Translations under genes and position numbers: made by a program
In this document: one piece after another, positions 7,457 through 21,580 of the stretch
Layout of the letters: the number at the start of each line of letters is the position of its first letter
Position numbering within the stretch: the stretch's first letter is position 1
Notes under the pieces: generated by a model
What the model saw: only the letters and a program-made list of their open reading frames with translations
The model's database searches: none
What the model was told of the DNA's origin: nothing
DNA from: a virus
DNA: 22,533 nt
Strand: one strand, 5' to 3'
Virus record (IMG/VR): IMGVR_UViG_3300047546_003020
Location: 1-22,533 of that record

Positions 7457-8236
7457 ATGTCGTCAACAGCATCAAACAAGCAACCCTTGTTTATTGACCG
7501 CCCGCTGTTTGATTCGGTGCGGATTACTACTCAGACCGTCGGCAGCGCAGCTTCCAACACTGTGTTTGTGCAGGGTGGTCAGGCTCCGTCCATCCTGGTA
7601 GATATGGACGCATCCTTGAGTGAAGACAATAACAACGGCGGTGTTGTTGATTCGATCAGCATTGTGAGAAATGACTATTATCGTGATGCTGACTACGTTA
7701 TTAGCACTGCTACTTCTGGTAGCGTCATTTCTCTGACCAGCGGTCAAGTCGTTTTAGTTTTTGAAACCGGCATTCTTACTAACCCGGCAGCCAGTGGGTT
7801 TGGTTATTACACCTACACGGGCGCCACGACGTTGACCGGTGTGAATACAAAACTCTTGTACTCAGGTGGCACGGCGACAGGTTTTCTTTACAACGGTGTT
7901 AACTACGGTTACCAACCAGAAGTAACCTTCGTCTTCTATCACACCCGTGGCACCACCACCCCGATTCCGGCATCTGGTGACTACAAGGTTCTGTTCACCA
8001 AGCAAGTTCCTGCCAATACTCAGCGTGTCGAGTGCACTGATGTGATGCCTGAGCTGGCAGTTCCTGCTGTGTCTGCAGGTAATACCACCGGCCTCGGTAA
8101 CGGTTCGCCCTTGCGGAACAAAGGTATTTACCTGGAGCGTGGTGACCGTATTTACGTTGGCGTGTTCCCTGACGGTCCTAATATCTCTGGTTACACCCCA
8201 GGTGTTCATATTGTTGCCCAAGGCGGCTTCTTCTAA
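7457..8236 (+). CDS. Beta-rich virion structural protein
   Basis: The protein has 259 residues, rich in Thr, Gly, Val, Ser and Tyr with alternating hydrophobic strands and essentially no long helix. Its C-terminal section, including the LERGDRIYVGVFPDG stretch around residue 225-240, looks like a folded beta-sandwich or jelly-roll edge of a surface virion protein. No enzymatic residues stand out. It begins 27 bases after the previous gene, behind a candidate promoter, and the next gene starts three bases after its stop. Tail, spike or decoration roles are all possible; I do not recognise the family. Confidence 0.65.
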   Translation: MSSTASNKQPLFIDRPLFDSVRITTQTVGSAASNTVFVQGGQAPSILVDMDASLSEDNNNGGVVDSISIVRNDYYRDADYVISTATSGSVISLTSGQVVLVFETGILTNPAASGFGYYTYTGATTLTGVNTKLLYSGGTATGFLYNGVNYGYQPEVTFVFYHTRGTTTPIPASGDYKVLFTKQVPANTQRVECTDVMPELAVPAVSAGNTTGLGNGSPLRNKGIYLERGDRIYVGVFPDGPNISGYTPGVHIVAQGGFF

Positions 8237-11260: not shown

Positions 11261-11718
11261 CTCTTGAGCAATGGATGCAGCACACGGCTCCTGAAATGCA
11301 TGGAGCCAAGATGGCTGCTGGAGAAAACAAAGATGCATTGGAGTATCTTTTACAGCTTGGATATTGCTGTCGAATCATCGACAATGTTTATGACGAAGAC
11401 CGTACTTACGAAAAGCAAGATTTAATTGACGTATTTGAAATACTTGTCTCCAGGGTTCCATCCAACCCTTTTTATGTTGAGAATATTAAGACGCTACAAC
11501 CAATTCAAAACATCGGCTGGTGCGCCTGGCAGCAAGCAAATCGACTTTGCACTGGTAACAAAACAGAAAGAATTTATGCTCACGTCTACCGTGGGTTGGT
11601 CACTGAACTTTACCCAGCAGTTGCCTTGCTGACTCAGGGTTACAGTGCGATGATAGAAGTACGAAAATTTACTGAAACATATTTTCGCGATAGTTGGGAA
11701 AAATCGCTTGAAAGGTAA
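11257..11718 (+). CDS. Unrecognised 153-residue helical protein
   Basis: The protein is mainly helical, with a conserved-looking core: IIDNVYDED at about 41-49, SNPFYVENI around 70-78, and a final section with WCAWQQANRL near 90-99. I do not know the family name. It overlaps the HNH gene by four bases upstream and the 846-residue gene by TAATG downstream, so all three are probably translated from one message. Without motifs, its function cannot be stated. Its coupling to the large virion gene suggests a phage morphogenesis role more than an association with the nuclease. Confidence 0.6.
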   Translation: MTLEQWMQHTAPEMHGAKMAAGENKDALEYLLQLGYCCRIIDNVYDEDRTYEKQDLIDVFEILVSRVPSNPFYVENIKTLQPIQNIGWCAWQQANRLCTGNKTERIYAHVYRGLVTELYPAVALLTQGYSAMIEVRKFTETYFRDSWEKSLER

Positions 11719-14258
11719 TGGGAATTTTTTACAACCCCACTGCTCGCAAGTGGAATGTTACTTACGAGAAAACAGATAATCCGACAAATTTAAAAGCTGA
11801 TTACCCGGAGACGGAACAATACAGCGTCAAGGTTTCTAACGCTTGCGATTCTCGCGACTTCTGGGGAAACTGCGTTGGCCAGGATCGTTGGGAAACCAGG
11901 ACCAGGGATTTGCCTGAAAATAAAAGAATTAATGAAAGTAATAGAAAGGATAATGAATTAAATCAAAAATTAAACCAAGAAAATATTGCTAAAAACAAAG
12001 CGTATGATACGACGCTTGCAGCAGCAAACTCAACTCGTGGAGGTGATTACACGGGACAACGACAAGTTATACGCAACCTTAAGGATGTAGATCCAACCTT
12101 TAAAAAGGATCTGGAAGAGCAATACAAGACATTTTACCGAACTGAAAAACTTCAAACCTGGGATGTGAACCTGGGCGCCAAACCTATTTATGGTAATTTC
12201 GATCCAAATTATTACAAACAGACTTATCCGCAAGTTGCCGAATCTTGGAAATCGGCAGTGGCAAATGATGACATCGACATCACAGAGCGTTATGGGGAAA
12301 ATGGTTATTACTTGCAACACTACACAACACAAGGAAAGCCTGCAGGATTTCGTGGCAACGCCCCGGAAGTAACTGCTGCAGCAAAGGCTTATGTAGAGAA
12401 AAAACCTACGGACCAAGATCTTCAAGCTGTTCGTGACTTGCAGCTTGGCATTGATACCGATACTCAAACGGAACGCCTTCTAAACATTCCGGAAATTGCT
12501 GCCGAATGGGAAAAAGCTAAAAACGATGACCCTTACTGGAAGCAACTTGCAAAAGATAATTATTTAGACCCCAATAATGCCGAGGAATTTGCGGCTCTGT
12601 TCCGTATTTCCAATCGTCCAAAAGATAAACAAGTAAGTTTGGCTTACAACATCAATGCTGGCTATGGCGTCACTGAATTAGAAGATGCACTAAATCAGGC
12701 AGTTGGCGAAAAGGCTAACTTAGATGTTAAAAAATTTGGTGCTTTGGCACAAGATGTGTTGAAGCAAACTATTAAAGAAATGAAACAAGCAAAGGCTAAG
12801 GAACAAATGCTTAGTCTCATGGGTGGTTTCAGTGGATTCAGTGAAATCATGGACATCAATAATCAATTAAGTAACTCCATATTGGGCGATACAGGGATCG
12901 GCGGGTTACTTTCTTTTACTTCTGGAGGCAAGGCAGAGGAGTCTTTGGAGAAAAGTCTTCAGGGAATTACCGGTGTGCGTAATAGTGCCACTTACAACTG
13001 GCAGCAATGGTTTGATACTGAACTTAAAAAACGTTATGAACAAGACCTGGAGTTGGGCTATACAGATTCAGAAGCTCAGCAAAATGTGAAAATTGAATCT
13101 CAATTTGCAAGAGACTTTATCGACAAATATTTAGTTCCGCGCTTTAACACAGCTCGTTCGATGAATGAATTTGTTGAATACTTAGACATCAGACAGGAAG
13201 AGCAAAACCCGTTCCAAACGCAAGACATGGTTAACGCGGTTAGCTTGATCGCCAATCTGCGTGCTAATCAATATTTAGATCAACTTAAGAATACAGGAGA
13301 ACGTTATTTTGATTCAAATTTCTACTTCAATCCCACTGGGGATAAAGCAAGAGAAGATGCTTACACCAATCAATCTCAAACCGTTTCCGCTGATTGGGAA
13401 AACGCTAAAAAAGGAGATCCATATTGGGCGCAGCAGGCATATCGCTTTGGCGTGGACATTAATGATAAAGATGCTTTTGCACGTATGCACTTCCAAGTTA
13501 AAGGTCAGGGATTGGGTTATGACGCAGCAGATGACATTCTTAATGCAAGCAAGGTTCAAAGTGAGATCTACAATCGTATTCTGCCTGCACTAAAGGAAGA
13601 AGCTTTAAAACAAGGTTCCATCTTTGGTCAGTTTATTACTCCAGAAGAATTCGCAAATGAAATGCTGCGGGGCTTGGATCCTAATGACAAATCAACTTGG
13701 CAAGAAGTTCTTCAGCGGTACGGACTTACTGACTTCAAAGGCACTATCGATGAGTTAAAAGAATATGTGACAGAAACATTGCGTACAGGTTCAGGGCAAG
13801 AAATTAGGGAACAGATTAAATATCTAAATGAAAAGCGCCAGCGTCCAACGCAAGAAGTCCTAGGCTTAACTTATATCGAGCGTCCGGAAGACTATAAAGA
13901 TGAAATGGCCACCCCACAAACAGAATTGTATAAAGTGTTTCAATCCGCTGGTTATCAAGGGACAGAAGATGAGTTTTATGAAAACTTTTTCCCTGACCTG
14001 GACAAATCGGAACAAGTTGCTCTTACCAAGGCGGGTACAAATACAGCACTAAAAGTCACGGGATTAGATTTGAGTGATCCCTTTGCTTCCCTTGGAACGA
14101 TTGAAAGTTTCTTTGATGAAGAGGCTCCAGAAGATGCAGAGCCTGGGAGTGTTGACAATTACTTTAAGTTAGGATTAGAGAATGAAGATTCAGAATATAA
14201 ATCAAAAACTGGATCTCAGATTCTTGGTGAATTTACCTCTATGTTTAAGGGATTCTGA
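11718..14258 (+). CDS. 846-residue probable internal virion or ejection protein with internal repeats
   Basis: This is a large, mostly helical, Gln/Asn/Lys/Glu-rich protein, AT-rich in codon use. Three related units are visible. They lie at about residues 161-195 (FDPNYYKQ, then VAESWKSAVANDD), 258-296 (AAEWEKAKNDDPYWKQLAKD) and 531-596 (FDSNFYFNPTG, then SADWENAKKGDPYWAQQAY). A Gly-rich hydrophobic patch lies at about 365-400. No catalytic motif is recognised. Very long helical proteins near the end of a virion operon are often internal head or DNA-ejection proteins in short-tailed phages, or tape-measure-like proteins in long-tailed ones. Both are possible here. Its stop and the next start overlap as TGATG. 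Confidence 0.65.
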   Translation: MGIFYNPTARKWNVTYEKTDNPTNLKADYPETEQYSVKVSNACDSRDFWGNCVGQDRWETRTRDLPENKRINESNRKDNELNQKLNQENIAKNKAYDTTLAAANSTRGGDYTGQRQVIRNLKDVDPTFKKDLEEQYKTFYRTEKLQTWDVNLGAKPIYGNFDPNYYKQTYPQVAESWKSAVANDDIDITERYGENGYYLQHYTTQGKPAGFRGNAPEVTAAAKAYVEKKPTDQDLQAVRDLQLGIDTDTQTERLLNIPEIAAEWEKAKNDDPYWKQLAKDNYLDPNNAEEFAALFRISNRPKDKQVSLAYNINAGYGVTELEDALNQAVGEKANLDVKKFGALAQDVLKQTIKEMKQAKAKEQMLSLMGGFSGFSEIMDINNQLSNSILGDTGIGGLLSFTSGGKAEESLEKSLQGITGVRNSATYNWQQWFDTELKKRYEQDLELGYTDSEAQQNVKIESQFARDFIDKYLVPRFNTARSMNEFVEYLDIRQEEQNPFQTQDMVNAVSLIANLRANQYLDQLKNTGERYFDSNFYFNPTGDKAREDAYTNQSQTVSADWENAKKGDPYWAQQAYRFGVDINDKDAFARMHFQVKGQGLGYDAADDILNASKVQSEIYNRILPALKEEALKQGSIFGQFITPEEFANEMLRGLDPNDKSTWQEVLQRYGLTDFKGTIDELKEYVTETLRTGSGQEIREQIKYLNEKRQRPTQEVLGLTYIERPEDYKDEMATPQTELYKVFQSAGYQGTEDEFYENFFPDLDKSEQVALTKAGTNTALKVTGLDLSDPFASLGTIESFFDEEAPEDAEPGSVDNYFKLGLENEDSEYKSKTGSQILGEFTSMFKGF

Positions 14259-14563
14259 TGTCAGAAAAAGCCAAGAAAGCTGTTAACGCTGCACAGCGGT
14301 ATAAGAAGTCAGAGATGGCTTGCAACAAACCGCAACGAACTCCGAACCATCCAAAGAAAAGTCACATCGTCAAAGCCTGTGACGGAGGACAAGAAAAGAT
14401 CATCCGTTTTGGTGAACAAGGCGCAAAGACCGCTGGTAAACCGAAAGCCGGTGAGTCCGAACGCATGAAACAAAAACGTGCCAGTTTCAAGGCGAGGCAC
14501 GCAAAAAATATTGCCAAAGGCAAAATGTCAGCTGCCTACTGGGCGGATAAAGTTAAATGGTGA
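14258..14563 (+). CDS. Small basic protein, unrecognised
   Basis: A 101-residue, strongly basic protein with start overlapping the previous stop (TGATG). It contains IIRFGEQGAKTAGKPKAG in the middle and a KARHAKNIAKGKMS segment followed by AAYWADKVKW at the end, a pattern that looks conserved. I recall similar small proteins in large marine phages but cannot name the family. High Lys/Arg content suggests nucleic-acid contact, for example with packaged DNA, but this is inference. Confidence 0.65.
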   Translation: MSEKAKKAVNAAQRYKKSEMACNKPQRTPNHPKKSHIVKACDGGQEKIIRFGEQGAKTAGKPKAGESERMKQKRASFKARHAKNIAKGKMSAAYWADKVKW

Positions 14564-14568
14564 TTTAA

Positions 14569-14694
14569 ATGGGAAAAGTAAAGAACTTATCACAGAAAAA
14601 AGAAGCGAAACCCAAGCTCACAAGGCAAGGAAACGGACAAAACTCCAAGCCAAATCACGGCCGAAAGAAAAGTCGCGGTCAGGGCAAGGGCTAA
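14569..14694 (+). CDS. Very small basic Lys/Arg/Gly-rich protein
   Basis: A 41-residue frame starts at the ATG at 14569, six bases after the previous stop, and ends at TAA 14692-14694. It reads MGKVKNLSQKKEAKPK, then a Gly/Asn/Lys-rich part ending RKKSRGQGKG. Almost half of the residues are Lys, Arg or Gly. Its position directly behind another basic protein supports a real gene, possibly a DNA- or RNA-binding peptide. A longer frame on the same strand through this region overlaps it and looks non-coding. Confidence 0.5.
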   Translation: MGKVKNLSQKKEAKPKLTRQGNGQNSKPNHGRKKSRGQGKG

Positions 14695-14740
14695 CACTTA
14701 ATCATTATTTGTGTATCATGGATTTAATTGACTTAAATCC

Positions 14741-15403
14741 ATGGCCCATTATTTTGGTGACGCCATAAAAATCATTCGTAAATACGAAGGGTTTAATGAG
14801 AAAGCGTACCCAGATCCTCAAAGCGGGAGTGCGCCGTACACCTTTGGCTATGGGACACAGTTTTACCCCGACGGATCACCGGTTCGTCAGGGCCAGTGCT
14901 GCACGAAAGAAAAAGCCCTGGAATATTTGTTCCATGAAGTCAAGTTGATCGATAAACAGCTAAAAGAATTGCGTGTTCACATGGATGATTCCATGCGGCA
15001 AGCATTGATTTCTTTCGTCCATTCGGTGGGTTGGGAGCCGTTTCTTTACAGCGCCATCATCGATTACATGGAGCAAGAAGACTGGGGTGCGGCCGCTGAT
15101 GAAATCACCCATTGGATTTTTGATTCCGAACACAAGGTCATTGGCGGTCTCCTGGAGCGCCGTAGGGAAGAAGTGGATCTGTTCCTCCAGGAGATCAACA
15201 CCAACCCCTGGGCTTCAACTGAGATCCTCCTGGCGGCATTTCGGAACTACTCGGCAGCCCCAAGCCAAGTCCGAGCTATTCGCAAATTAGAAGAAAATAT
15301 TAACCCTTATACCCTAGCCGAATTTGCCAATGAGTTCAATATTACTCACAATCCGTGGCATCCGTTTAGCGAAGAAGAGCTTGACGCTATATTTGCAAGC
15401 TAG
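14741..15403 (+). CDS. GH24 (T4-type) lysozyme, probable endolysin
   Basis: This muramidase would cut the MurNAc-GlcNAc bond at lysis. The catalytic signature is at the N-terminus: YEGF (E16), AYPDP (D25) and the YTFGYGT segment with T34. Further lysozyme features follow, including G-V-x-x-G at about 45-51, a helical ALISFVHSVGW segment near 87-97, and GLLERRREEVDLF at about 136-150. The 220 residues exceed the T4 enzyme (164). The last ~65 residues form an extra helical region of unknown role. No signal peptide is visible, so export would depend on a holin, not identified here. No clear Shine-Dalgarno precedes the start. Confidence 0.85.
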   Translation: MAHYFGDAIKIIRKYEGFNEKAYPDPQSGSAPYTFGYGTQFYPDGSPVRQGQCCTKEKALEYLFHEVKLIDKQLKELRVHMDDSMRQALISFVHSVGWEPFLYSAIIDYMEQEDWGAAADEITHWIFDSEHKVIGGLLERRREEVDLFLQEINTNPWASTEILLAAFRNYSAAPSQVRAIRKLEENINPYTLAEFANEFNITHNPWHPFSEEELDAIFAS

Positions 15404-15427
15404 TCTTAGAATACTTTCAACGAAGCC

Positions 15428-15727
15428 ATGAAAAACGCAATGGATAAGTCAATCGAACCTCGAGAATTCGAGCTTCCTTTGGAACTTCAGTTCTCCATGC
15501 GTAAGGCTGAGATCGCAGCAGCGGAGATGACATGGGATCAACTCCATGCCGCACTCTTGAACCTTTACTACCAGCGCCTGATGGAATGGCAAGCTGTAAA
15601 GGAGATCATGGCTGGCGAAAACATTGAGCTTGATTTTGACATTCCAACAGACCTGGAACTAGAAGAACTGGCCCAGGCCTGTGCACTTATGGAAGATGAC
15701 GACGATGACGAACTTCAGCCGTTCTGA
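15428..15727 (+). CDS. NblA-like phycobilisome degradation protein
   Basis: NblA is a small cyanobacterial adaptor that directs phycobilisome antenna proteins to Clp protease. Residues about 14-62 align by eye with NblA of filamentous cyanobacteria: E-L-x-L-E-x-Q-F-S-x-R, then M-x-x-D-Q, L-x-x-L-Y-x-Q and a downstream Glu. These fall at LPLELQFSMR (16-25), MTWDQ (34-38) and LLNLYYQRLMEW (43-54). The protein is longer than NblA (99 against about 60) because of an acidic tail, ending in a run of Asp and DELQPF. The start could be the ATG at 15428 or at 15440. A TTGACG at 15381 and TAGAAT at 15407 may be a weak promoter. It converges with the DUF3310 gene, overlapping it by 13 bases. Confidence 0.55.
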   Translation: MKNAMDKSIEPREFELPLELQFSMRKAEIAAAEMTWDQLHAALLNLYYQRLMEWQAVKEIMAGENIELDFDIPTDLELEELAQACALMEDDDDDELQPF

Positions 15728-16206
15728 GGTTCTTTGGTTTTAATCAATTGATCTAAATACCAACGGCACTTTTTGAGGTCTTGTACACCTCCTTTTTGCT
15801 TCCAGCGCCAAAGGTATTTCACGCAATTACCGCGTAAATAACCTTCGTATTCTTCTGCGGAAAGCTGGGCTTCGATTGCTTCAATACATTCGATCCCACC
15901 GTCAGTGTAGTGAGAAGGATGGTTGACAACATCTTCCTGAACTACAGGTCTTGCTGGTACAAATGACCAAGGAACAGGACAAACGCCACCGGGGCATTCA
16001 CTTATTTCGTCTACCGGGTTAAACCACGGCGCTTGCGTGACATCTCTTTCATCTCCTCGCTGGGAGATTCCAGTTCCATGATCAGTGTTTTGGGCTTCGG
16101 GGATGCTCCCGCTTGAAGACCCTGTTCCATCGAAGGAATGTAACCCGTCATTCCGGGCCGTTCCCCCTCGATTGCCAAATTTCTCCTCGGTCTGTCGTCC
16201 TGACAT
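15715..16206 (-). CDS. DUF3310 (SaV-like) nucleotide-kinase-type protein, start uncertain
   Basis: Residues 93-155 carry the DUF3310 signature: the NHPSHYTDGGIECIEAI segment, then EGYLRGNCVKYLWRWKQKGG and DLKKCRWYLDQLI. The family is common in phages and loosely annotated as nucleotide kinase, with no proven reaction. The only ATG in this frame is at 16206, which would give an N-terminal region of ~70 low-complexity residues (Gly/Ser/Thr-rich). That region is read in another frame as the end of the neighbouring leftward gene. I find no ATG, GTG or TTG closer to the domain. Either a 196-base overlap, a -1 shift from the upstream frame, or a non-standard start is needed. The domain call is solid; the start is not. 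Confidence 0.7.
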   Translation of the reverse strand: MSGRQTEEKFGNRGGTARNDGLHSFDGTGSSSGSIPEAQNTDHGTGISQRGDERDVTQAPWFNPVDEISECPGGVCPVPWSFVPARPVVQEDVVNHPSHYTDGGIECIEAIEAQLSAEEYEGYLRGNCVKYLWRWKQKGGVQDLKKCRWYLDQLIKTKEPQNG

Positions 16207-16358
16207 GCAACTAAACCCCTGTTGTACATGTCTTGTAATGGTACATCATTATTTTGATTTGCGATGGGCTGCCCGAAATCTTCTTCACTCAGGCAACGGC
16301 ACAAAACTTCGTCTTGTACAAAACTATCTAAGAATCCCAATGCATCTCTGTGCATCAT
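16011..16358 (-). CDS. Unrecognised leftward protein upstream of DUF3310
   Basis: I prefer the ATG at 16358 (115 residues). An ATG at 16481 would add 41 residues lying antisense to the rightward gene at 16395. The product starts MMHRDALGFLDSF, is acidic in its first half and ends with a basic tail (KRRGLTR). Its last 65 residues share DNA with the putative N-terminal part of the DUF3310 frame. This frame looks more protein-like in the overlap than the DUF3310 one. The function is unknown. It is divergent from the gene at 16395 with a 36-base gap and no visible Shine-Dalgarno on either side. Confidence 0.5.
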   Translation of the reverse strand: MMHRDALGFLDSFVQDEVLCRCLSEEDFGQPIANQNNDVPLQDMYNRGLVACQDDRPRRNLAIEGERPGMTGYIPSMEQGLQAGASPKPKTLIMELESPSEEMKEMSRKRRGLTR

Positions 16359-16394
16359 GATATGAGCTGGAATTATCTCTTCTAAAATATTATC

Positions 16395-16781
16395 ATGCTT
16401 AGTTTCTTCGATTCTACTTACGATCCGCAGAGGGACTCTGGTACCTCTGGTGCAGAGCTTACGGACCTCAATCCGGAACAAGCGTATGACACGGACTTGC
16501 GTCGCTTAGATCCAGAAGAGCGTATTACTGCTTCCAGGGCGGATACAGAGAACGCAAGACAACAAGATCGTGTTGCTAAATATTTCAGAGCCGCGAAAAG
16601 TGCTGGTAAATTTCGCCAGAAGGCCGGGATTGATGAGCCGATGATTCGTGGCAAAACTCCTCGTACAGAAGCCGTAATCGATGGTGTTTATCTCCCCAGC
16701 CAGGGGGATCGCATCGGCACTGCTGGAAGTACAAACTATGCAGAAAAACCAAAGCCAAACTTTGGCATGAGTTACAGCTAA
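16395..16781 (+). CDS. Unrecognised acidic-to-basic small protein, rightward within the leftward block
   Basis: This is a 128-residue protein with a hydrophilic, probably disordered N-terminus rich in Asp, Glu, Thr and Ser (TDLNPEQAYDTD), a charged helix around 40-75 with many Arg and Lys, and a C-terminal YAEKPKPNFGMSYS tail. Unlike its neighbours it is on the plus strand. It converges with the 66-residue leftward gene, overlapping by a few bases at the stops. Possible AT-rich promoter DNA (AAAATATTAT) lies just before the ATG. A virion-associated or regulatory role is possible; I cannot assign one. Confidence 0.5.
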   Translation: MLSFFDSTYDPQRDSGTSGAELTDLNPEQAYDTDLRRLDPEERITASRADTENARQQDRVAKYFRAAKSAGKFRQKAGIDEPMIRGKTPRTEAVIDGVYLPSQGDRIGTAGSTNYAEKPKPNFGMSYS

Positions 16782-16978
16782 TCAAAAGTCATCGTATTCA
16801 TTTCTTCCATTTCCAAGCAGTCCCTCATATCTTCGAAAGTGGGTGTGAGAGCATTCAACACCCACTGAACATCATCAGATTTAAACTTCTTTAGTTTCTC
16901 TGTAAGTTCATTATTTTCTAAAAGGATTACGTTGTCGTAAATCACTTCGAGAATATCAAGGCAAGTAGTGGGGTTCAT
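16778..16978 (-). CDS. Small acidic protein coupled to dCTP deaminase
   Basis: A 66-residue, Asp/Glu-rich helical protein (for example ELTEKLKKFKSDDVQW and FEDMRDCLEMEEMN). Its ATG overlaps the stop of the deaminase gene as ATGA, indicating coupled translation. There is no recognisable motif and the function is unknown. Confidence 0.6.
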   Translation of the reverse strand: MNPTTCLDILEVIYDNVILLENNELTEKLKKFKSDDVQWVLNALTPTFEDMRDCLEMEEMNTMTFD

Positions 16979-17562
16979 ACTTTTGCGAGAACAACGTTGT
17001 AAGCTTGGTTTTGATATTTGCCTTTGCGGTCCTGGTAGCTCGTTTCACAGGAGTTACCGCGATGAAACAGGAGTTGCGTGATGCCTTCATTGGCATAAAT
17101 TCTGTTGAAAAGACCAGTGCAATTACTGATTTCCAGGGTTAAATGACCGCACCAGCCTGCTTCCGCTGGAGTGATGTTCACAAGGATGCCAGAGCGTGCA
17201 TACGTCGACTTGCCAACTGCCACAACAGTGACATCCCGTGGTAATTGCAGGTGCTCCTCTGCGACACCAAGGCAATACCCGTAAGGAGGGAGAAGAAAGT
17301 AATGGCCTTTCTCATCTTCCAGTAATTCGGCAGGACGCAGAATGTCAGGGTTGAAATCTTTGGGATCACAGTCGCCAGATTGAATGCGTCCAAAGACTAA
17401 ACACTGCTTTGCCGATAAACGAATATCGTATCCATAAGAACTGAGTCCATAGCTGAGAATCTTTCTTCCATCACACTCACTGATGAGTGAATCCTGGAAC
17501 GGACTGATCATATTTTTTGTTTCGGCCAGGCACTTAATTTCCCAATCAGCAAGGACAGTCAT
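16975..17562 (-). CDS. dcd: dCTP deaminase
   Basis: It converts dCTP to dUTP, supplying thymidylate synthesis during phage replication. With the ATG at 17562 the protein has 195 residues, the usual family length; a TTG at 17574 adds four. The dUTPase-like fold motifs are present in order: GYDIRLS at 44-50, GKSTYARSGILVN at 117-129 with the Ser and Arg of the nucleotide site, and LTLEISN at 141-147 with the catalytic Glu at about 144. The C-terminal YQDRKGKYQNQ segment is also typical of bacterial dCTP deaminases. The deaminase-only form is most likely rather than the bifunctional type, but I cannot exclude that from sequence alone. It is followed by the small acidic gene in an ATGA overlap. 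Confidence 0.88.
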   Translation of the reverse strand: MTVLADWEIKCLAETKNMISPFQDSLISECDGRKILSYGLSSYGYDIRLSAKQCLVFGRIQSGDCDPKDFNPDILRPAELLEDEKGHYFLLPPYGYCLGVAEEHLQLPRDVTVVAVGKSTYARSGILVNITPAEAGWCGHLTLEISNCTGLFNRIYANEGITQLLFHRGNSCETSYQDRKGKYQNQAYNVVLAKV

Positions 17563-17595
17563 AGTCGCGTTCAATCGTTTTTCAGTATACCCAAC

Positions 17596-18180
17596 TCAAT
17601 AAATGACGCGGCCTCTTTCTGAATAAATGTCAATGAATCTCTGGGTTGCCTCACCTGAGTTTTTCTTGGGTTGCAAGTAAACCAGAAAACTGGTACATGT
17701 TTTGTGTTTGCTGATACCCTCACTGGTGTTCTTGATCAGGACGGGGGTCGTTTTCAAGAAGCAAATTGGAAAATCAAAGATCTTTTGTTCATATCGAATC
17801 ATGTCAGGACAGTTGGTCAGGTAAAGACCCTGCTCTATTTCATCTGCCAGCCACAATCGGTACAGCTTTCGGAACCATACGGCATGAGAAGATGAAAGTG
17901 ACACAGAAGAAGCCCGTGTCATCTTCCACTTTTCTTTCTTTTTATCCCAGTAGTAGCAGCCACTGGGAGGAAAGAGATAGACCTTGCCGTACCAGTCTTG
18001 CTCATTGAGACCATCTTCTTGTGGCCCAAAGAAAGCTTTTGCCTGGACGTAGGAATTCGCAATCCTGGAACTAGCTGGATCCAAGTCAATTTCACCCATC
18101 AGCTCATGAGCTGTAGAGATGAGATCAGGGCTTGTGATCAGTTCAAGATCTTCAACTTTTTTACGGAATTGACCGCCCAT
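17596..18180 (-). CDS. Phage Dam-type N6-adenine methyltransferase homologue with degenerate catalytic motif
   Basis: This 194-residue protein matches the layout of the phage DNA N6-adenine methyltransferase family. TSPDLISTA lies near 16-24, DLDPAS at 32-37, AFFGPQEDGL at 49-58, then an aromatic/Trp segment and a late FPICFLKTTPVLIK at about 136-149. The catalytic motif expected as NPPY or DPPY reads FPPSG at 70-74. The Asn/Asp that contacts the adenine amino group and the stacking Tyr are absent. It may be inactive or repurposed, for instance as a DNA-binding or antirestriction factor. Start ATG 18180 with GGAGAG nearby; overlaps the previous stop by one base. Confidence 0.6.
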   Translation of the reverse strand: MGGQFRKKVEDLELITSPDLISTAHELMGEIDLDPASSRIANSYVQAKAFFGPQEDGLNEQDWYGKVYLFPPSGCYYWDKKKEKWKMTRASSVSLSSSHAVWFRKLYRLWLADEIEQGLYLTNCPDMIRYEQKIFDFPICFLKTTPVLIKNTSEGISKHKTCTSFLVYLQPKKNSGEATQRFIDIYSERGRVIY

Positions 18181-18569
18181 TACTCTCCTGCAACGCGGTT
18201 GTAGTCTATTTCCAAATAGCGAATGCCCTCTTCATCATTCACGATGTAGCCCGCTTTCTCTTCTGGATCAATCTTTTGTGCAGCCTGGAGGATACGGCGA
18301 AAAGTTTCAGCCATATCACCGTCATTGCTTCGTTCACACTCCTCTTGAGCTGCGTGCAGTTCCTTAAGTGTTAAGAAGAAAACCTGTCGCTCCTTGTTGT
18401 TTGGTTGGAAGCACAAAACGCCAGGTCCCTCTGCTGCCCAGAATTTTGTATACATGCTACCCATGTCACCCAAGATGAGAGCGACTGTGGTTTCGAGCAT
18501 TTTTGCCTTAGTTTCATCGGCAATGTCTTTACCCAAGATCTGAAGAAGTAACTTTTCCCGTCTGTTCAT
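18180..18569 (-). CDS. Unrecognised 129-residue protein in the leftward block
   Basis: A helical N-terminal half (REKLLLQILGKDIADETKAK) is followed by a segment with many hydrophobic and aromatic residues (MYTKFWAAEGPGVLCFQP) and an acidic C-terminus (EEGIRYLEIDYNRVAGE). The pattern around GPGVLCFQP, VFFLTLKEL and the final strand suggests a small alpha/beta fold. I do not recognise the family. It overlaps the preceding gene by 41 bases if the ATG at 18569 is used, and no Shine-Dalgarno is clear, so the start may lie further in. It meets the Dam-like gene in a TAATG overlap. Confidence 0.55.
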   Translation of the reverse strand: MNRREKLLLQILGKDIADETKAKMLETTVALILGDMGSMYTKFWAAEGPGVLCFQPNNKERQVFFLTLKELHAAQEECERSNDGDMAETFRRILQAAQKIDPEEKAGYIVNDEEGIRYLEIDYNRVAGE

Positions 18570-19026
18570 TGCGTAATAGATCTTGTTTTTGAAGAGATTC
18601 TAAGAGCTTTGGAAGTGGTTTGTAAATAACAACCAGCTTTCCAAGGACTCCACGTTTTTTCATTAACTTGCCATTCTCATCGCGCATCTTGTCAAATTCG
18701 CCGGAGCGAATCAGATATTCAGCGACACACCGGAGACGGCGCTTGAGGGGCAGCTCGGCTTGTGGGAATTTACCACAGATCGTATCTGGGTGCATGTCCT
18801 TGAAAGCAAGTCGCAATCTGTTCGCCAAGGTCATACCGGAATTGGCGTCCTCTTCTTCATATTTTTTTAAGTTTTCGAGGTATCTTCTAAGGCACCCATC
18901 ATCAAAAGATCCACTGGGCGGCAGGTAATCCATCAACTGAAGGTAGATGGAAGGCGGCAAGATCTCCACGCAGTTCTCAATCGTGACATCGTCAATGGAG
19001 AAGCCGTCGAAACGAGTAATGGTCAT
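18529..19026 (-). CDS. Unrecognised protein with possible winged-helix C-terminal part
   Basis: The ATG at 19026 overlaps the previous stop (ATGA) and has GGGAG about ten bases upstream, so I prefer it over the ATG at 19068. The result is 165 residues. The second half carries a run of basic helices (PLKRRLRCVAEYLI) and a KKRGVLGKLVVIYKPLP segment that resembles a beta-wing, so a winged-helix DNA-binding fold is possible. The first half is more acidic, with YLPPSGSFDDGCLRRYLENL. No catalytic motif is seen. A role in DNA-binding regulation or replication is inference. Confidence 0.5.
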   Translation of the reverse strand: MTITRFDGFSIDDVTIENCVEILPPSIYLQLMDYLPPSGSFDDGCLRRYLENLKKYEEEDANSGMTLANRLRLAFKDMHPDTICGKFPQAELPLKRRLRCVAEYLIRSGEFDKMRDENGKLMKKRGVLGKLVVIYKPLPKLLESLQKQDLLRNEQTGKVTSSDLG

Positions 19027-19436
19027 TTCCGGAACTCCCTCATTGGCGTGTACATTGGAGGTTGACAATCCCGGAAATCTTGAAAGCTGATGTCTTTATT
19101 CTTAATGAATGATTGGATCAACTGGTTCCAGGGGATGCGGATCACGGCTTTTTTGTAGTGATCAGGTGAAACATTGACGTAGTGGATACCCTCTTGCCAC
19201 CCTTTCTTCTTGTCTTTCCGCCCTTGTGCGATCCAATTTCTGATCGTTTGGTCCGATACGCCAAGCCTCCGACCACACTCTTCAGTGGAAATGTATTCGT
19301 CAGCAAATGCCTCTGGATTCAACGTAGCTGCTTCATCGTTGTCATAACGACTTTTCCACATGGCACCAAGGATATTGCGAATGCCCTTCAGTTCAAAGGC
19401 AATGTCCTCAAGTCCTTTCCTAATTCCTGAAGTCAT
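19023..19436 (-). CDS. Helix-turn-helix DNA-binding protein at the head of the leftward block
   Basis: A 137-residue protein. Residues about 48-72 (ISTEECGRRLGVSDQTIRNW) form a classical helix-turn-helix of the excisionase/MerR-like kind, with a following wing-type section: the KGWQEGIHYVNVSP segment, then KKAVIRIPWNQLI. As the first gene of the leftward transcript it is a natural candidate for an early regulator. Its layout resembles the smaller protein at 10533-10751, so the two may be distant relatives. No Shine-Dalgarno is visible. The gap to the rightward gene holds a perfect palindrome, AAAACGTTTT. Confidence 0.65.
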   Translation of the reverse strand: MTSGIRKGLEDIAFELKGIRNILGAMWKSRYDNDEAATLNPEAFADEYISTEECGRRLGVSDQTIRNWIAQGRKDKKKGWQEGIHYVNVSPDHYKKAVIRIPWNQLIQSFIKNKDISFQDFRDCQPPMYTPMREFRK

Positions 19437-19472
19437 AGCAACACAATTTCTGTTTAAATGCTAGTCTGTGGG

Positions 19473-19482
19473 AAAACGTTTT
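19473..19482. repeat. Perfect palindrome in a divergent intergenic region
   Basis: AAAACGTTTT lies in the short region between the leftward helix-turn-helix gene and the rightward membrane-protein gene, where both promoters should start. It is a possible operator for the adjacent regulator, but a ten-base palindrome can occur by chance. Confidence 0.3.
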
Positions 19483-19490
19483 GCATTCTC

Positions 19491-19820
19491 ATGTCAGAAC
19501 AAATCCCTAACAGCCAGATGCCACCGTTGGCCGATGTCAATGGCAATGTACAAATCCCTGGAACCATTACGCCCGAGCAATTGGAAGAAATGAAGGCTCG
19601 CGCCAGGGAGCTTGCTATTCGCCAAACCCTGGTTCAGCAACAAGCTCAGGAAGCAGTTCCCCCGAGTGTTCCGCCGCAAGTTATTTATGTGCGTAGGAAT
19701 TTGACAGTGGCAGAATTACTGCTTCTTTTGTTACTTTCCTGCGGGATTGTCCTTGGAGTTCAAACCATCGGCGGTGTTGTGGCGAATACACTTCCCCGTA
19801 TCGAGATTAAACTTAAATAA
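19491..19820 (+). CDS. Single-span membrane protein
   Basis: The ATG at 19491 gives 109 residues; a longer frame from 19458 looks less likely. Residues 1-65 are hydrophilic with a Glu/Ala/Arg/Gln-rich helix (about 27-52) and Pro-rich PPSVPP at 57-62. Residues about 71-97 are a strongly hydrophobic segment (LTVAELLLLLLLSCGIVLGV) preceded by Arg-Arg, predicting a cytoplasmic N-terminus. A short basic tail, RIEIKLK, follows. It is not obviously a signal peptide. Holin-like, superinfection or structural anchoring roles are possible but unproven. Confidence 0.6.
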   Translation: MSEQIPNSQMPPLADVNGNVQIPGTITPEQLEEMKARARELAIRQTLVQQQAQEAVPPSVPPQVIYVRRNLTVAELLLLLLLSCGIVLGVQTIGGVVANTLPRIEIKLK

Positions 19821-19870: not shown

Positions 19871-21580
19871 GTGGCAAACCGTAGGATCTCTGATTTACAA
19901 GAGATTGCTGGGATAAGCCTGGCGGACGGAGATCTATTTACCGTAGTCCAGGTCGCGGAAGTCGACCCGGCAATTAAAAATAAAAAGCTCACAGTTTCAG
20001 GCGTTAGAGGTTACTTAAATCTGTACTACCTGCAACTCGCAGGCGGTACGGTAAGCGGTGCAGTTGTCTTTGCAAACAACGTCACTGTTTCTGGGACGAC
20101 CACCCTTAATAACTTCACGGTTACTGGTAGTACAACTCTTGCCAGCCTGGTCGTACAGAACGGAGCCATTGTCAGTGGCACCATCACTGGTGTTGGCACG
20201 ATCACCGGTAACACCATCCAGGGCAACCTTGTTGCTGGTACCTCTGGTCAGTTCACCACAATCACTGGTGCCACTGTTCAAGCAATCAGCGGTAACTTTA
20301 CGAACCTTAGTGGTACAACCATTACGGGTACGACGGTCAATACGCTGACCGGTAATTTCTCGAACGTTGTCACCGCCAATACGGTCAGTGGAATTACCGT
20401 TACCGGAACAACGGTTAATGCCAGTAGTGGCGTATTCACCACCCAAGTTTCTGGCGCCACAATCACTGGTAATAACATCAATGGAACCAGTGGTACGTTC
20501 CAGGTATTAAACGTTGCTTCCCAGCAGATCAGCGGTGATCTGACCGTTAGCGGCAATCTGCGTGTCCTGGGATCCGGCTTCTTTAGTTCCGGTGTCAACA
20601 TTAGTGGCACTCTCAGTGGTACCACGATTACCGGAACGACTGCTCAATTCACTAATGTCAATGGAATTTCTGGTGTATTCACAAGCCAGGTCTCTGGTGC
20701 CAGCATCACAGGCAACGCAGGTAATTTCACGACACTAACTGGTGGCACTGGAGTATTTACCACCCAGCTTTCTGGGGCAACAATTACCGGAAATACGGGT
20801 AATTTCACGAACCTAAACGCAATTACGGCGACGTTTGAAACTGGAATTGTCCGTCAAAACATCACTGTCACCGGCAATATTGTTACCAGTGGGACTCTTA
20901 CCGTTGGCCAGACGGCCACCATTACTTCAGGTTTAACCGTCACCAACGGCACGATCTCTGGTGTAACAATTACCGGAACAACGGGTAGTTTTACATCCGT
21001 CACTGGAGTTGGTGGTGGATTTACTACTCTTACTGGCAGTACGGTCACCGGTAATATTGCAAACTTCAGCAGTGGTGTCTTCACAAGCACGCTGTCTGGT
21101 GCAACGATCACTGGCAACATCGGTCAATTTAATTCGCTAACAGGTAACACTGCAGGATTTACGACTGTTACTGGTACCACAATTACAGGTACCAATGGTC
21201 AATTCACGTCAATCACAGGTATTGGCGGTGGTTTCACGACACTGACCGGTGCAACAATCACTGGGACCAACATCCAGGGAGTCAATATTACCGGCGCAAC
21301 AATCGTTGGTACGACTACGATTTCCGGTGCAACAATCACTGGTAATACCGGTAATTTTGCAAATTTAAATGCTGTTAGTGGCGTATTTACTCAGCTGTCG
21401 GGTGCCACAGTCACTGGTAATACAGTACGAGGAACTTCAGGTGTTTTCCAGAACCTTAGTGGTGCAACTATTACTGGAACCAGTGGTTTATTTACGAATG
21501 TATTGATTAACGGATCACCGGCGGCAAGTCAATCTTACGCAGATAATACTGCAATTGTTTTTGCAATTGCTCTTGGATGA
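19871..21580 (+). CDS. Repeat-built tail-fibre or spike protein
   Basis: The 569-residue protein has an N-terminal head of about 60 residues (RRISDLQEI, then GDLFTVVQVAEVD and a Val/Gly strand) that probably attaches to the virion. It then continues to the end with diverged short repeats. The main unit is SGATITGN-x-x-x-F; other units read TTLTGxTITG, with GxFT between them. Clear copies begin near 20450, 20693, 20771, 21095, 21325, 21398 and 21457. Thr, Gly, Ser, Ile and Asn dominate. This pattern predicts a long trimeric beta-structured shaft, as in many phage receptor-binding fibres. The start is a GTG with no strong Shine-Dalgarno. The last residues (SYADNTAIVFAIALG) form a different, unrepeated tip. 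Confidence 0.75.
   Translation: MANRRISDLQEIAGISLADGDLFTVVQVAEVDPAIKNKKLTVSGVRGYLNLYYLQLAGGTVSGAVVFANNVTVSGTTTLNNFTVTGSTTLASLVVQNGAIVSGTITGVGTITGNTIQGNLVAGTSGQFTTITGATVQAISGNFTNLSGTTITGTTVNTLTGNFSNVVTANTVSGITVTGTTVNASSGVFTTQVSGATITGNNINGTSGTFQVLNVASQQISGDLTVSGNLRVLGSGFFSSGVNISGTLSGTTITGTTAQFTNVNGISGVFTSQVSGASITGNAGNFTTLTGGTGVFTTQLSGATITGNTGNFTNLNAITATFETGIVRQNITVTGNIVTSGTLTVGQTATITSGLTVTNGTISGVTITGTTGSFTSVTGVGGGFTTLTGSTVTGNIANFSSGVFTSTLSGATITGNIGQFNSLTGNTAGFTTVTGTTITGTNGQFTSITGIGGGFTTLTGATITGTNIQGVNITGATIVGTTTISGATITGNTGNFANLNAVSGVFTQLSGATVTGNTVRGTSGVFQNLSGATITGTSGLFTNVLINGSPAASQSYADNTAIVFAIALG

Follow-up and report, generated by a model that had tools for sequence, protein, structure and literature searches.

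Locus and gene neighbourhood

The window, by which we mean the whole stretch of DNA analysed (22,533 bases), is an IMG/VR virus record and is assigned, by its sequence, to the same cyanophage lineage as S-EIV1, a freshwater phage of Synechococcus. Gene order is shared between the two, and S-EIV1 matches window positions 11718-19500 with 68% DNA identity across 68% of that stretch. The gene of interest codes for a protein of 99 residues with an NblA-like domain, and is placed with its parts and neighbours as follows:

14741-15403, plus strand: endolysin gene (Phage_lysozyme, PF00959), immediately preceding the NblA-like gene at a distance of 24 nt
15428-15727 (stop included), plus strand: NblA-like gene, 99 aa, based on the open frame, relatives and purifying selection
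15458-15616, plus strand: NblA-like domain, residues 11-63, based on profile searches, the register table and predicted helices
15617-15688, plus strand: conserved extension ENIELDFDIPTDLELEELAQACAL, residues 64-87, based on alignment A1, the structural model and the register table
15689-15724, plus strand: acidic run and C-terminal tip MEDDDDDELQPF, residues 88-99, modelled with low confidence
15710-15732, plus strand: terminator-like stem-loop over the tip codons and stop, from a consensus scan only
15715-16206, minus strand: convergent DUF3310 gene, stop at 15715-15717

The gene may alternatively start at Met5 (15440), because this residue never varies in alignment A1 and is the first one in several relatives. 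At its other end, it is overlapped by the stop and last codons of the DUF3310 gene over 13 nt (15715-15727). The scan that yielded the stem-loop found 6 terminator-like sites in the scanned region, with 2.8 expected.

A first IMG/VR scan returned 442 relatives of the NblA-like protein. Three more scans, started from marine, S-EIV1 and '-SVF' forms, enlarged the set compared in full to 135 distinct complete proteins (93-110 aa), both freshwater and marine. Measured on the core of 75 codons, dN relative to the window ranges from 0.04 to 0.26, and dS exceeds 1 or is saturated. Of 120 distinct relatives in which the upstream gene could be tested, 119 have an endolysin there, in agreement with the location beside the endolysin given in the original prediction, and a convergent DUF3310 gene lies downstream in all 114 that could be tested. 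Given the 442 relatives, the low dN at high dS and the near-invariant synteny, the open frame is a real gene; its conserved sequence and fixed neighbours make it a stable component of the S-EIV1-like lineage. Judged from the place beside the endolysin alone, late expression is suggested. When genome contigs were scanned with the family alignment, a single contig was found, in a mislabelled MAG: PAZU01000015.1 (L085), deposited as 'Euryarchaeota archaeon', bears a marine NblA-like gene at 7904-8206, whose product recurs unchanged in two IMG/VR contigs (L092, L093), and looks like a cyanophage contig binned wrongly.

In S-EIV1 itself, AHV82245.1 (KJ410740, 73902-74222), deposited as 'hypothetical protein', is a clear orthologue with 60% identity over residues 5-74 and the same neighbours as in the window. 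Its acidic run is longer than that of the window protein and its tail ends in ELAPF. Growth of this nearest isolate on Synechococcus supports the earlier expectation of a phycobilisome-bearing host. The phage to which a prophage of S. elongatus UTEX 3055 is said to be closest is likewise S-EIV1 (PMC9239245). The S-EIV1-type protein may already have been recognised, for instance in the survey of Nadel 2019, which is said to have covered distant nblA genes. A 2017 survey lists the S-EIV1 group with hli and ptoX, without nblA (PMC5332604 Table 2).

Three further genes of the window are of note. At 17596-18180 (minus strand), a 194-aa protein with no Pfam or PHROG match carries the motif IDLDPASS...DGLNEQDWxGKVYLFPPS, which recalls phage Dam-type adenine methyltransferases; FPP takes the place of the catalytic NPP(Y/F) and is the rule in relatives, so that, by its sequence, the protein could be an enzyme with lost catalysis or changed chemistry. 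The 569-aa protein at 19871-21580 (plus strand) consists of degenerate repeats around SGATITGNxGxFTxLxG, matches only pentapeptide repeats, below threshold, and may form a fibre or appendage. An 846-aa protein without PHROG match is encoded at 11718-14258 (plus strand), in the interval from the HNH-type gene region to the endolysin, where S-EIV1 has a 2.7-kb gene.

Relationship to NblA

NblA/Ycf18 (PF04485; 1ojh, 2qdo, 2q8v, 3cs5) is a ClpC adaptor for phycobilisome degradation. PF04485 matches the window protein at E = 2.1e-4 (22.1 bits; aligned residues 15-61) and residues 11-64 at E = 4.7e-5 (24.2 bits), both just below the curated Pfam cut-off of 25 bits; it also matches 37 of 38 diverse relatives (best E = 1.3e-6) and, in another set, 35 of 35. 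Among the 268 open frames of the window, the NblA profile selects this one only. A single-sequence PDB search returned 1ojh at E = 0.11, and in a search with the family profile NblA (1ojh) alone was significant, at E = 3.4e-5, the next entry having E = 0.34. Profile-profile comparison with ten genuine NblAs using hhalign gave E = 8.3e-7 and 3.8e-7 at a probability of 91.6-92.9%, with a score of 38.6 against 11.9 for the reversed profile; none of 60 column-shuffled decoys scored above 18.4, and the best decoy probability was 5.2%. Since the profile searches are significant and the decoys far below, with single-sequence searches borderline, we consider the protein homologous to NblA across the two-helix core of about 50 residues. 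The proposed NblA pattern at residues 14-62 and the relationship to NblA are thereby borne out.

PHROGs and NCBIfam contain no usable family for the NblA-like protein, and the unnamed phrog_23930, which genuine NblAs match, is not matched by it. Weak Pfam side matches to PHF12_MRG_bd, DUF4030 and TADA2A, all with E above 0.001, were dismissed as chance.

The motifs of the protein read E15-L-x-L-E-x-Q-F-S-x-R25, M34-T-W-D-Q38 and L43-x-x-L-Y-x-Q49. In sequence, it shares with host NblA the two-helix core, ELxLExQFSxR, the Met-x-x-(D/E)-Q turn, LxxLYxQ and the N-terminal half. The core is predicted to form helices at residues 18-32 and 36-63 (pLDDT 91), in register with the NblA alignment and with the modelled turn (M34-T35-W36) at the conserved NblA Met. 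Fold searches with the full model and the core (Foldseek, VIA-align; PDB, BFVD) returned nothing significant; very short helical models are non-discriminating in such searches, which for this reason neither confirm nor refute the hairpin.

NblA is reported to dock on ClpC via a motif near its N terminus and to contact phycobiliproteins with its C-terminal end, so that the Clp protease receives the antenna (PMC4103541; PMC7966870). Across the 135 distinct relatives, NblA positions L7, L9, E10, Q12, F13 and R16 are occupied by L, L, E/Q, Q, F and R, and M25, L34, L37 and Y38 are also kept in the register table. As far as sequence goes, the N-terminal half, the reported ClpC-docking part, is strongly conserved. 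At position 53, all solved host NblAs have Lys or Arg, which we take to be part of the phycobiliprotein-binding determinant; Ala is found there in 100 of the 135 relatives, and W56 is changed to Asn in 127, the set of NblAs used for comparison being one without picocyanobacterial members. By sequence, the end reported to bind phycobiliproteins is thus altered in this family. The NblAs of S. elongatus and Thermosynechococcus have also diverged at the C-terminal end and have no W56; its absence is therefore nothing unusual, in contrast to that of the basic residue. P17, E28, W36, R50, E53 and A56 are invariant in the NblA-like family and new to it.

Other phages are known to carry NblAs, namely phages of Microcystis and Planktothrix and marine phages (PMC9602691). 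As in the lineage described here, the NblA-family genes of Ma-LMM01, MaMV-DC, PaV-LD and Nodularia phages reside in cyanophages of phycobilisome-bearing hosts. The earlier comparison with Ma-LMM01 and PaV-LD holds insofar as these are phage NblAs, but their proteins are short (79 and 54 aa, and 58 aa in a Nodularia phage) and all lack the acidic extension, and their genes are sited elsewhere, e.g. adjoining nrdA in Ma-LMM01. We therefore view the NblA-like protein as a separate branch, not another copy. Distant nblA genes are reported for S-TIM5, S-SCSM1 and Syn5; searching these phages with PF04485, we found nothing.

The extension and its C-terminal tip

Host NblA measures about 60 aa, as opposed to the 99 aa of the NblA-like protein, which lacks K53 and W56 and has a predicted third helix, an acidic tail and a terminal Phe; nothing resembling the extension occurs in host-type NblAs, as had been proposed. 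Its description as some 37 acidic residues was right as to charge, residues 63-99 containing 15 Asp/Glu and no Lys, Arg or His, and too simple as to build: a third helix is predicted at about residues 75-90, and only after it come the acidic run and a short tip. All relatives possess the extension, with the conserved third helix, the acidic run and either a C-terminal Phe or the marine DPF form. Past residue 63, the stretch ENIxLxFDIPTDLELxELAxxC is conserved in freshwater and marine relatives, and the last 20 residues hold at least 7 Asp/Glu in every one of them. By sequence, the C-terminal end of NblA is replaced family-wide by a conserved stretch, predicted as a third helix, and an acidic tail, and the extension is too conserved for mere ornament.

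The tip is -PF in 82 of the 135 relatives, the window included, and another -F, mostly SVF, in 25, while in 28 marine-type proteins three or four further residues come after DPF (DPL in one case). Overlap with the DUF3310 gene amounts to 13, 12, 4 or about 0 nt across relatives. It is 13 nt in 41 of the 82 -PF forms, including the window, where a Gln codon is the reversed DUF3310 stop, and 12 nt in 16 of 23 -xF forms, where the Ser codon TCA is the reversed stop. The overlap therefore explains the recurrent Gln and Ser, and not the terminal Phe. Since about 37 -PF and 7 -xF relatives (44 together) keep the Phe end at an overlap of 4 nt or less, the terminal Phe looks to be under selection in the freshwater forms, as far as sequences tell.

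The C-terminal tip of bacterial single-stranded DNA-binding protein (SSB) is DDDIPF, and in every copy examined, freshwater and marine, the SSB encoded by these phages themselves likewise has a -PF end. In S-EIV1, the ssDNA-binding protein of the lineage is encoded at KJ410740 29657-30466 and has the conserved -PF tip like bacterial SSB, which was also found in contigs L086-L091, L201-L216 and L361-L369. The SSB gene of one contig (L309 / G043:C1:49718-50528) is split between two frames, by a frameshift or a sequencing error. When tails were paired by contig, the SVF tail of the NblA-like protein was found together with SSB tips DPPF or EPPF, and the marine DPFTPA tail with TDPF or EDPF; no co-variation of the NblA-like tail with the phage's own SSB tip was detected.

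Possible function

With the ClpC half kept and the substrate end replaced, the simplest account is an adaptor that would serve Clp through a rebuilt substrate contact. The reading we favour, with a probability of roughly 0.58, is a Clp adaptor descended from NblA whose substrate end has been rebuilt and whose target is most likely still the phycobilisome. The protein would fold as an NblA-like helical hairpin dimer and, during infection, dock on host ClpC and hand phycobilisome proteins over to the Clp protease, with the new C-terminal part or a helix surface replacing the usual phycobiliprotein contact. This contact would most likely have been rebuilt for picocyanobacterial phycobilisomes, the make-up of which is unlike that of the model strains, and the phage would gain amino acids and relief from excess light. 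Phage NblAs, marine metagenome-derived ones included, are reported to be active when expressed in cyanobacteria (PMC9602691), and the nearest isolate, S-EIV1, infects a Synechococcus; counting against a phycobilisome role are the changes at position 53 and W56, the greater length with its conserved extension, the Pfam score of the window protein below cut-off and the fold searches that returned no match. Of the initial designation as an NblA-like phycobilisome-degradation protein, the homology stands and the degradation role is less secure, residue 53 being mostly Ala and W56 Asn. Because the binding determinant, a basic residue at position 53, was looked for and found replaced, we class the protein as related to NblA and stop short of calling it a proven functional NblA.

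The same division into a kept core and a replaced end would fit an adaptor aimed at something other than phycobilisomes, in which the NblA core sits on ClpC while the third helix and acidic tail select another substrate, which may be, e.g., a host protein hindering phage growth. The replacement is family-wide at the C-terminal end with the N-terminal core positions retained, the new stretch is itself conserved in freshwater and marine forms, as for a binding surface, and the new invariant core residues W36, R50, E53 and A56 suggest new contacts. However, there is no candidate substrate, and the S. elongatus and Thermosynechococcus NblAs, which also lack W56, indicate that its loss alone is compatible with the usual role; we consider such a change of target unlikely, though it is the main rival of the favoured reading. 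An adaptor of this kind would have spread through one of the widespread cyanophage lineages of fresh and marine waters. That the last three to five residues are functionless, fixed by the DUF3310 stop and the terminator, with the rest acting as NblA, would agree with the recurrent 13-nt and 12-nt overlaps and with the terminator-like hairpin that covers the same bases in the window, but it is at odds with the Phe-ended relatives at 4-nt or zero overlap and with the marine forms, which keep DPF clear of the overlap, and strikes us as improbable.

Mimicry of the SSB tip was examined because the SSB of the same phages ends in -PF. The acidic -PF tail would here copy that tip and dock on SSB-recruited proteins, with the NblA core feeding them to Clp or just blocking them. 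An acidic run and a Pro-Phe end are indeed shared with the SSB tip by most freshwater relatives: -PF or another -F follows the acidic run in the 82 and 25 relatives counted above, and one relative has the tail NDDEDDVIPF. Yet an acidic run closed by Pro-Phe with a free carboxylate is not general in the family (82 of 135), the tail is out of step with the phage's own SSB tip, and the Phe of the marine DPFTPA is non-terminal. Part of the tip is moreover dictated by the overlap with the convergent DUF3310 gene, and convergence can easily produce acidic tails that end in a hydrophobic residue. SSB-tip mimicry was largely rejected on the missing co-variation and the overlap, and we regard it as very improbable.

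If the favoured reading of an adaptor that breaks phycobilisomes is true, NblA would belong to the regular late-region gene set of all S-EIV1-like phages, in lakes and ocean, rather than having been picked up now and then by a few phages of Microcystis and Planktothrix. If phycobilisomes are not what it breaks, the protein would show in nature how a virus can redirect a protease adaptor of its host. In both cases, the extended form would offer a direct handle on the open point of which part of NblA chooses the substrate.
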